In this document: positions 17,863 to 21,707 of the stretch, piece by piece
Layout of the letters: the number at the start of each line of letters is the position of its first letter
Position numbering within the stretch: the stretch's first letter is position 1
DNA from: Pseudomonadota bacterium
GTDB lineage: Bacteria > Pseudomonadota > Gammaproteobacteria > Xanthomonadales > Rhodanobacteraceae
DNA length: 43,914 nt
Direction of reading: 5' to 3'
NCBI GenBank assembly: GCA_028873095.1
Contig: JAGWMU010000005.1
Span: 1 to 43,914, forward strand
Program-made: the position numbers and the translations under genes
Notes under the pieces: model-generated
The model's input: only the letters and a program-made list of their open reading frames with translations
What the model was told of the DNA's origin: nothing
The model's database searches: none

Positions 17863-18525
17863 TCAGGCCCTGGACAGCAGCCGCCCGCCCATCATCGCGT
17901 TGGCGGCCACGACCAGGGCCACCGCCGCCGCATGCGTCAGCAGGTCGGTCGCCGCGGCATCGTATTTGTGGCAGATGTTCAGCAGGGTGGCCGAGGCGGC
18001 CGCGCTGGCCAGGCCGACCAGCACCGCTGTCAGCATCGGGCGCAACGGGCAGGCGCGGCGCAGCAGCACGATCAGCAGGGCGGACAGCGGGATCGAGAAG
18101 CTGACGATGAAGACCAGGCAATCGGTGGACTGGTGCAGGGTCGAGATCGTGGTGCCCGGCGCGAGCCAGGTGCGCAGACAGCCCAGCCCGCTGGCGCCGA
18201 TCCACAACACGGCGCCGGGCAGCGGCAGCAGGGCCCAGCGCGCATCCCGCCCCGGCACGCCCAGCGCAAACGCGGCCCACGCCGCGCCGATGGCGGTGAT
18301 CAGCGCGCCCAGCGCGGCCCACGCCAGATCCGGCGCACCGTCCCAGCGCCGGAGCATCGGATGCACGCCATAGTGCAGCAGCAGCACCGCGCCGATCGCC
18401 GCCACCGCCAGCAGCCAGCCCACGGTGCGCCGCCACGGCGACGGCAGCCGGCGCACCGGCACCAGCGCGGTGCCGAGACGATCGATCAGTAGCTCATGCG
18501 GTTGCGAGTCGGACATGCTGTTCAA
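17863..18525 (-). CDS. NrsF/DUF1109-family membrane anti-sigma factor
   Basis: Six predicted TM segments, downstream of and overlapping an ECF sigma gene; conserved-looking HQSTDCLVFI and NICHKYDAAATDLLTH. Confidence 0.85.
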   Translation of the reverse strand: MNSMSDSQPHELLIDRLGTALVPVRRLPSPWRRTVGWLLAVAAIGAVLLLHYGVHPMLRRWDGAPDLAWAALGALITAIGAAWAAFALGVPGRDARWALLPLPGAVLWIGASGLGCLRTWLAPGTTISTLHQSTDCLVFIVSFSIPLSALLIVLLRRACPLRPMLTAVLVGLASAAASATLLNICHKYDAAATDLLTHAAAVALVVAANAMMGGRLLSRA

Positions 18526-19187
18526 GGCTCTCCAAGAAAACGTTCGCGCAGCGCTTTCAGCGCACGATGCAGGTTCACCTTCAGCGCGCCGGTGTTGCGG
18601 CCGGTGAGTTCGGCGGCCTCGCTCAGCGAACGCTCGCGCAGGCCGAGCTGTTCCACCGCCTCGCGCTGGCCGGGCGGCAACGCGGCGATCGCCGCATGCA
18701 GGCGCCGTGCCCGCTGCAGGCTCTCGGTGGCCGTGCCGGCGTCGTCCGGACCGGAGTGGCTGTCCAGCGCGGCATCGTCGTGCAGCTCGCGACTGTCGCG
18801 GCGGCCGCGGCGGCGCAGCGCGTCGATCGCGCGGCGGCTGGCGATCGCGGTGAGCCAGGCGTCGTAGGACCGGCCCGGGTCGTACGTGTGGCGCACGCGA
18901 TGCACGGTGATCAGGGTTTCCTGCACCACGTCATCGAGATGATCGTGGGCCACGCCCTTGCGTCGCGCCGCCGCACGGATCAGCGCGACCGACTCGGCCA
19001 GCACCTGCTCGTAGGCACGCCGGTCGCCGGCCTGTGCGGCGGCCATCCGCGCCGCCCGGCGCCGGTCGGGCGAATCGCTGGCATCGACATCGGTTGATTC
19101 GGCTGACACGGACGGATCGACACTCACCCAGCTGGAAAGGTCACTATCTAGACCCATGCAGCCGGTTGCGGTCAAGGCTTGCGGCAC
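18522..19187 (-). CDS. ECF RNA polymerase sigma factor (SigF-like)
   Basis: HDHLDDVVQETLITVHRVRHTYDPGRSYDAWLTAIASRRAIDALRRRGRR (sigma region 2) and LPPGQREAVEQLGLRERSLSEAAELTGRNTGALKVNLHRALKALRERF (region 4). GTG start preceded by GGAG; an ATG at 19157 is an alternative. Confidence 0.93.
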   Translation of the reverse strand: MPQALTATGCMGLDSDLSSWVSVDPSVSAESTDVDASDSPDRRRAARMAAAQAGDRRAYEQVLAESVALIRAAARRKGVAHDHLDDVVQETLITVHRVRHTYDPGRSYDAWLTAIASRRAIDALRRRGRRDSRELHDDAALDSHSGPDDAGTATESLQRARRLHAAIAALPPGQREAVEQLGLRERSLSEAAELTGRNTGALKVNLHRALKALRERFLGEP

Positions 19188-19220: not shown

Positions 19221-19246
19221 TTCGCCGCATCCGGACAGGGAGTTAC
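19221..19246 (-). promoter_or_regulatory. candidate ECF sigma promoter for the sigma/anti-sigma operon
   Basis: On the minus strand: GTAACT-N16-CGAA (plus strand TTCG-N16-AGTTAC). Confidence 0.6.
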
Positions 19247-19286
19247 ATCGTCTTCACGAAACCGGCCTGACGGCACGGACGCCGAG

Positions 19287-19312
19287 GTAACCGCCGCCGG
19301 CAGGCCGGCGAA
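19287..19312 (+). promoter_or_regulatory. candidate ECF sigma promoter for the dipZ-like/msrB operon
   Basis: GTAACC-GCCGCCGGCAGGCCGG-CGAA (16-nt spacer), 32 nt before the ATG at 19345. Confidence 0.65.
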
Positions 19313-19344: not shown

Positions 19345-21066
19345 ATGCTCGTGTTGATCCTTGCCTACCTCGGCGGCGTACTGACCATCCTCAGCCCCTG
19401 CATCTTGCCGGTGCTGCCGTTCGTGTTCGCGCGCTCCGACCGGCCGTTCATGCGCAACGGCCTGCCGATGCTGCTGGGCATGGCGGTCACCTTCGCCGCG
19501 GTGGCCACGCTGGCCGCGCTCGGCGGCGGCTGGGCGGTGCATGCGAACCAGTACGGTCGCGCCGTCGCCCTGGTGGTGCTGGCGCTGCTCGGCCTGACCC
19601 TGCTCTCGACCCATCTGGCCGAATGGATCGCCCGCCCGTTCGTGGCGCTGGGCAACCGGCTGTCGCAGCGTTCGTCCGGCGATGGCGATTCGATCTGGGG
19701 TGCGGCCGGCCTGGGCGTCGCCACGGGCCTGCTGTGGGCGCCGTGCGCGGGGCCGATCCTCGGCCTGCTGCTGACCGGCGCGGCCCTGAACGGCGCCAGC
19801 GTGCAGACCACCTTGCTGCTGCTCACCTATGCCGGCGGTGCGGTGACGTCGCTGGGTTTCGCGCTGCTGATCGGCGGCAAGCTGTTCGCCGCGATGAAGC
19901 GCTCGCTGGGTGCCGGCGAATGGGTGCGCCGCGCGCTCGGCGTGCTGGTGCTGGCCGGCGTGGCGGCGATCGCGCTGGGGCTGGATACCGGCCTGCTCAC
20001 CCGCGTGTCGCTGGCCAGCACCAGCGGCATCGAGCAGAAGCTGATCGACGCCGTGCGCCCGGCCCCGGCGCCCGCGCCGAGGCTGAAAGCCGGCGAGCCG
20101 TTGCCGGTCGAAGGCCGGATGCCGTCGCTGGCCGGCGCCACGCAGTGGCTCAACAGCCCGCCGCTGAGCGCCCGGTCGCTGCGCGGCAAGGTGGTGCTGG
20201 TGGATTTCTGGACCTACTCCTGCATCAACTGCATCCGCACGCTGCCGTACGTGCGCGGCTGGGCCGACAAGTACCGCGATCACGGCCTGGTGGTGATTGG
20301 CGTGCACGCGCCGGAGTTCGCCTTCGAGAAAGACCCGGCCAATGTCGCCAGGGCCATCCGGGAGCTGGGCGTGGATTATCCGGTGGCGCTGGATAACGAC
20401 TACGCGATCTGGCAGGGCTTCAACAACGAATACTGGCCCGCGCATTACTTCATCGATGCGCAGGGGCGGATCCGCCATCATCATTTCGGCGAAGGCGGCT
20501 ACCACCAAAGCGAGGATGTGATCCGCCAGCTGCTGGCCGCGGCCGGCCAGAAAAACCTGCCCACCGGTTACGTCGACGACAACCGCCACGGCGTGGAAGC
20601 CGCCGCGTCGGACGACCCGACCCGCTCGCCGGAAACCTATGTCGGCTACGCCCGCGCCGAGAATTTCGCGGGCGGCCGGGTGGCGCACGACGAAGCGCTG
20701 GACTACCGTGCACCGGCCAGCCTGGCCACCAACCAGTGGGCGTTCGACGGCCGCTGGAGCGTGCGCGACGAATACGCGCAGCTGGACCGGGCCGACGGGC
20801 GCATCGTCTACCGTTTCCGCGGCCGCGACCTGCATCTGGTGCTGGGCCCCGGCAGTGCGGGCAAGCCGATCCGCTTCCGTGTGCGTATCGACGGCAAGCC
20901 GCCCGGCGCCGATCACGGCGTGGATACCGATGCCGACGGCAACGGCACCGTCACCGCGCAGCGCCTGTACCAGCTGGTGCGCCAGGCTGACGGCAGCGGC
21001 GAGCGCCTGTTCGAGATCGAGTTCCTCGACCCCGGCGTGCGGGCGTATGCCTTCACGTTCGGCTGA
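19345..21066 (+). CDS. DipZ-like fusion: CcdA-type membrane domain, periplasmic thioredoxin domain and C-terminal beta-rich domain
   Basis: ILAYLGGVLTILSPCILPVLPFVF, GLLWAPCAGPILG (CcdA cysteines), VDFWTYSCINCIRTLPYVRGWADKY (Cys-x-x-Cys), C-terminal ATNQWAFDGRWSVRDEYAQLD...DLHLVLGP. Confidence 0.93.
   Translation: MLVLILAYLGGVLTILSPCILPVLPFVFARSDRPFMRNGLPMLLGMAVTFAAVATLAALGGGWAVHANQYGRAVALVVLALLGLTLLSTHLAEWIARPFVALGNRLSQRSSGDGDSIWGAAGLGVATGLLWAPCAGPILGLLLTGAALNGASVQTTLLLLTYAGGAVTSLGFALLIGGKLFAAMKRSLGAGEWVRRALGVLVLAGVAAIALGLDTGLLTRVSLASTSGIEQKLIDAVRPAPAPAPRLKAGEPLPVEGRMPSLAGATQWLNSPPLSARSLRGKVVLVDFWTYSCINCIRTLPYVRGWADKYRDHGLVVIGVHAPEFAFEKDPANVARAIRELGVDYPVALDNDYAIWQGFNNEYWPAHYFIDAQGRIRHHHFGEGGYHQSEDVIRQLLAAAGQKNLPTGYVDDNRHGVEAAASDDPTRSPETYVGYARAENFAGGRVAHDEALDYRAPASLATNQWAFDGRWSVRDEYAQLDRADGRIVYRFRGRDLHLVLGPGSAGKPIRFRVRIDGKPPGADHGVDTDADGNGTVTAQRLYQLVRQADGSGERLFEIEFLDPGVRAYAFTFG

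Positions 21067-21104: not shown

Positions 21105-21707
<603 letters not shown>

Follow-up and report, generated by a model that had tools for sequence, protein, structure and literature searches.

In the ECF16 or SigF-NrsF kind of system, NrsF ties its sigma factor to the membrane and lets it go when an oxidant or a metal acts on NrsF; the freed sigma factor then turns on its target genes and the operon in which it is itself encoded. The prototype is that of Caulobacter, in which the SigF motif GTAACC-N16-CGAA was mapped by 5′ RACE and lacZ fusions and the system is induced by chromate and cadmium (PMC3511200). Caulobacter NrsF has two conserved cysteines, C131 and C181, that matter for signalling (PMC3511200), and both cysteines of Bradyrhizobium OsrA likewise matter (PMC3420878). 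Brucella BcrS is autoregulated and HOCl-inducible, with a promoter motif that matches the one described below (PMC8315932). Hypochlorite is also the stress tied to the system found in perchlorate islands, some of which bear exported MsrA and MsrB (PMC4623255).

Here we compare these systems with a locus in the window, by which we mean the whole stretch of 43,914 bases that was analysed. By its predicted domains, its NrsF neighbour and its promoter motif, the window system probably belongs to the ECF16/SigF-NrsF kind. We consider it very probable that two back-to-back motifs at this locus serve as independent promoters for the neighbouring, NrsF-held sigma factor, which would drive both itself and a dipZ-msrB operon for methionine repair.

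The ECF sigma gene, probably of the SigF/ECF16 kind, lies on the minus strand at 18522..19187, and its product has region 2 and region 4 domains only (Sigma70_r2 and Sigma70_r4_2). Its start codon is probably GTG 19187 rather than ATG 19157, the GTG lying 30 nt further upstream, because ATG or GTG occupies the equivalent place in 39 of the 43 orthologs that align from ATG 19157. Behind it on the same strand, at 17863..18516, is the gene for a membrane anti-sigma factor of the NrsF (DUF1109) family, which scores 71.3 bits against Pfam PF06532 (cut-off 26.8) and has cysteines at 113, 133, 156, and 182. On the plus strand, 19345..21066 encodes a DipZ-like protein with DsbD-type membrane, TlpA/redoxin, and Thioredoxin_10 domains. 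The Redoxin (43.2 bits) and Thioredoxin_10 (169.9 bits) matches are over their cut-offs, and the DsbD_TM match, at 25.3 bits, is slightly under its cut-off of 27.1. The features of DipZ, a CcdA-TlpA type reductase, are nevertheless present: two membrane cysteines (19 and 134) and an extracytoplasmic redoxin domain with C293-x-x-C296. The next gene, at 21105..21707 (+), encodes an MsrB (TIGR00357) with predicted twin-arginine export (DRRRFLRAAL), and a twin-arginine-like motif is found in 74 of 76 MsrB orthologs.

A pattern search of the window for GTAACY-N16-CGAA gave exactly two matches, both in the spacer between the sigma gene and dipZ. The minus-strand match, GTAACTCCCTGTCCGGATGCGGCGAA at 19221..19246, reads GTAACT-N16-CGAA and points to the sigma gene, as the predicted promoter of sigma-nrsF; its CGAA lies 33 nt from the sigma start codon if that start is GTG 19187. 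The plus-strand match, GTAACCGCCGCCGGCAGGCCGGCGAA at 19287..19312, reads GTAACC-N16-CGAA and points to the dipZ-like gene, as the predicted promoter of dipZ-msrB, with 32 nt between CGAA and the start codon. By chance, 0.04 matches would be expected in the window, and none of 100 shuffled versions had two. We looked for a sigma-70-like promoter in this spacer and found none. The promoter of the ECF16/SigF-NrsF kind, (T/C)GTAAC-N16/17-CGAA, is thus present before both the sigma gene and its putative targets. The first-pass annotation had placed the two motifs at these positions, facing these genes, with exactly 16 nt between the boxes, and had pointed to a similar GTAACC/CGAA promoter in the Caulobacter SigF/NrsF system; each of these points held, and the published SigF sequence, GTAACC-N16-CGAA, is identical (PMC3511200).

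Both motifs are conserved in orthologous loci. Searching for proteins related to the sigma factor gave 80 such loci, mostly from Rhodanobacter, Dyella, and Frateuria. The sigma-side motif stands upstream of the sigma gene in all 80, solely with N16; each other spacer length from 8 to 26 nt matched at most one locus. On the divergent side, the motif lies within 400 nt of dipZ or msrB in every one of the 79 loci that have those genes, with N16 in 75 and N15 in 4, and the distance from the G of the -35 box to the divergent start codon is 53-62 nt in 74 of the 79. The only locus without dipZ and msrB, L083, has no second motif. In five loci (L037, L041, L048, L082, and L087) dipZ has shifted 0.4-4.5 kb away from the sigma gene, and the motif moves along with it and lies ∼58-60 nt 5′ of the displaced gene. 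Six others (L014, L017, L024, L031, L069, and L084) lack dipZ and begin with msrB, and there the motif precedes msrB. The bases between the boxes vary, the commonest base mostly reaching 40-80%, and GTAAC and CGAA are invariant; the pattern required those bases, yet no locus failed it. Almost certainly, both motifs are true start sites, used by a stress sigma factor to turn on itself and the divergent genes, whose products would repair oxidised methionine outside the inner membrane. The first-pass annotation had counted a lack of conservation in orthologous spacers as evidence against an autoregulated sigma factor; with an ECF-type protein, an NrsF neighbour, the Caulobacter motif, and conservation of both promoters, the sequences support the proposed autoregulation.

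Which sigma factor reads these promoters? The promoters could be real and read by another ECF sigma factor, the adjacent one having other targets. Cross-talk is possible among ECF sigma factors, and in Caulobacter, sigF retains some promoter activity without SigF (PMC3511200). However, the motif is the one that belongs to the NrsF-linked group and it precedes the sigma gene in all orthologs, and just one NrsF gene was found in the window's own genome, so we regard a different sigma factor as very unlikely. The sigma protein is 23-39% identical to NrsF-adjacent sigma factors in other families; because identity is this low, we infer shared recognition of the motif from its presence before both kinds of sigma gene.

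The mirrored boxes could also be the halves of a single palindromic operator, bound by a dimeric repressor or activator, instead of two promoters. They are inverted copies in one spacer, as the first-pass term “mirror-image pair” conveys, and in about half of the loci the copies are just 12-16 nt apart. Yet they do not behave as a fixed unit. Across the 80 loci the gap between the two can be as short as 12 nt or exceed 2 kb, whereas the distance from each to its own start, like the 16 nt from GTAAC to CGAA, stays constant, which argues that the predicted promoters are independent and arranged back to back. Most gaps fall into two groups, 12-16 and 20-25 nt. Helical phasing between the promoters was considered and rejected, with no 10.5-bp periodicity over the distinct gap values (p ∼0.63) and with off-phase differences between near relatives. 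In addition, the msrA, MxKDx, and msrP-like genes described below each have just one copy of the motif in front of them. A palindromic operator is largely refuted by these comparisons, and we give it very little credence.

The predicted regulon is wider than the local pair, and most of its members would protect methionine outside the cytoplasm. A pattern search of the assembly that contains the window, which has 2.88 Mb and is 82% complete, gave seven exact motif matches, six of which lie upstream of a coherent gene set: sigma-nrsF, dipZ-msrB, an exported MsrA whose signal is lipoprotein-like (L089), a methionine-rich MxKDx peptide (L091), an MsrP-like molybdoenzyme with cytochrome b (a cytochrome b561 and Oxidored_molyb pair, L088), and a DUF2282-BufB-DUF2063 bufferin operon (L088). 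The seventh (C101, L090 3810) was rejected as a promoter, as it falls within a long open frame and probably arose by chance. On L088 (5177-9867), the bufferin-type and MsrP-like operons are divergent and ∼0.9 kb apart, with a motif on each. Across as many as 30 genomes from the genus, 27 of 30 MsrA orthologs, 19 of 20 MxKDx peptides, and 8 of 8 MsrP-like operons have the motif upstream, with a single control match for the three sets combined. The Caulobacter counterparts of the bufferin-operon genes are SigF-dependent. Within the genus, only 1 of 21 BufB loci has the motif, so the bufferin operon is unsupported there as a conserved member of the regulon. Separately, motifs lie on both sides of a BufB/HvfB-like cluster in genome G014 (L190, 660 and 3469; similar in G004 and G006), one before a predicted periplasmic thioredoxin-like protein and one before a protein that by eye resembles AraC.

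A third motif lies behind nrsF in 16 of the 80 loci, and in 15 of these it precedes MxKDx-like methionine-rich peptides; two of these peptides were compared with TIGR02953, and one scored over and one under the cut-off. MxKDx peptides with signal peptides occur under the motif either alone or directly behind nrsF (L091 3193-3556, L053 6202-6575, and others). The first-pass annotation had taken the divergent methionine sulfoxide repair operon as the local regulon, and this is supported, with the distant predicted targets to be added to it.

The raw count is not enriched in the genus, with 205 motif sites against 187 reversed-motif sites in 24 members, and we rejected a definition of the regulon by motif count. 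Genome scanning alone would therefore have misled, and it is the position of the motifs, not their number, that constitutes the evidence. A motif equally frequent genome-wide had been named at first pass as a sign against the reading; the raw count does come out equal, and the conserved position before specific genes overrides it. The idea that the motif pair is chance or a remnant of drift in a GC-rich spacer has next to no probability. In its favor, the motif, with 9-10 fixed bases, is short, and in the genus it is about as common by raw count as the reversed control; but conservation of position in 80/80 and 79/79 loci, with inter-box bases free to vary, has already refuted it.

The NrsF proteins of this clade differ in their cysteines from many distant members. 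C133, the first known cysteine, is present in 80 of 81 clade rows of the alignment, including the window protein (one row is gapped), and in all 12 distant rows. At the second position the window protein has C182, followed by H183, and 8 of the 12 distant members have the cysteine one column on, often as H-C. Compared with classical NrsF, the second, putatively sensing cysteine of the window protein is thus shifted by one residue. The 80 clade rows that have C133 all have an extra cysteine, C113, as well, and C156 is common in the clade. The altered cysteines of the Rhodanobacteraceae branch offer a natural comparison for the question of what NrsF senses.

Across the class, PF06532 genes over the cut-off were found in 15 of 370 genomes. 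In other gammaproteobacterial families, the motif precedes a divergent cytochrome b561 gene (L122 and L123), a divergent gene for a BufA-like peptide (L124 and L125), or a divergent gene for an exported Cys/Lys-rich peptide (L128 and L129), and in L122, L123, and L124 it is on the sigma side too. Since divergent genes of other families carry the motif, the layout is not peculiar to the Rhodanobacter clade, and the local target has been exchanged. On balance, we favor the view that the Rhodanobacteraceae have a diverged SigF-NrsF branch devoted to extracytoplasmic methionine repair by three routes together, MsrA, DipZ-MsrB, and an MsrP-like enzyme, plus a sacrificial methionine-rich peptide; that its NrsF has CH in place of HC and has gained a near-invariant third cysteine; and that the divergent target is exchangeable between families (cytochrome b, bufferin-type peptide, or dipZ-msrB) while the mirrored layout is kept.

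How might the system work? In the unstressed cell, NrsF, a six-helix membrane protein, would hold the sigma factor. When NrsF is oxidized or attacked by a metal on its periplasmic side, the sigma factor would be set free and would bring RNA polymerase both to its own promoter, a case of positive autoregulation, and to the dipZ-msrB promoter on the other strand. It probably also drives the distant exported MsrA, the methionine-rich sacrificial peptide, and the MsrP-like molybdoenzyme. We infer promoter recognition by the sigma factor, inhibition by NrsF, and the signal from characterized relatives. DipZ would take electrons from thioredoxin in the cytoplasm and pass them through the membrane to a thioredoxin-like domain of its own in the periplasm; this domain would recycle the exported MsrB so that methionine sulfoxide is repaired. 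To our knowledge, the electron acceptor of DipZ is often not known, and here DipZ and an exported MsrB are in one operon under one predicted oxidant-type switch. The flow of electrons from DipZ to MsrB is suggested by the operon and by a similar proposal for Bradyrhizobium. If these predictions hold, this is a sequence-defined regulon for defence against periplasmic methionine oxidation in a common soil and groundwater genus, and it carries the connection of SigF-NrsF with methionine sulfoxide repair past the studied species.

Our literature search found no paper combining DipZ, MsrB, and ECF, and comparison with the described systems shows what is shared and what is not. Caulobacter crescentus SigF-NrsF, the ECF16 prototype, has the same order of sigma gene then nrsF, with the motif before sigF and also before the SigF-dependent operon CC3254-3257, and its regulon likewise includes a YedY/MsrP-type molybdoenzyme and DUF2282-DUF692-DUF2063 genes (PMC3511200). 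In contrast, no MsrA change was seen in Caulobacter, and its local target is a bufferin-type operon rather than dipZ-msrB. Brucella melitensis BcrS-AbcS also pairs an ECF16 sigma factor with an NrsF-family anti-sigma factor, and has a methionine-rich peptide and an MsrQP-type operon adjacent (PMC8315932). Its local target uses MsrPQ chemistry, whereas here the local route is the thiol route of DipZ-MsrB, and the MsrP-like enzyme, MsrA, and methionine-rich peptide are encoded at distant sites. EcfF-OsrA of Bradyrhizobium japonicum, also ECF16, controls three methionine sulfoxide reductases together with a DsbD-like/thioredoxin pair that is proposed to supply one of the three (PMC3420878); however, its motif spacing is N14-15 and its genes are scattered, unlike the single divergent operon here. 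The SigF-NrsF system of Azospira and other perchlorate islands, with MrpX and YedYZ, shares the methionine-rich peptide and a methionine sulfoxide reductase (PMC4623255), but it is mobile and found in perchlorate reducers, whereas the present locus is widespread across Rhodanobacter and relatives. In Haemophilus influenzae, RpoE2-HrsE is similar in that an ECF sigma factor controls periplasmic MsrAB, under HOCl (PMC7907618); it differs in being ECF13-type, with a small soluble anti-sigma factor unrelated to NrsF. Altogether, this is a known kind of system with a new predicted target set, of which the local dipZ-msrB operon is the distinctive part.
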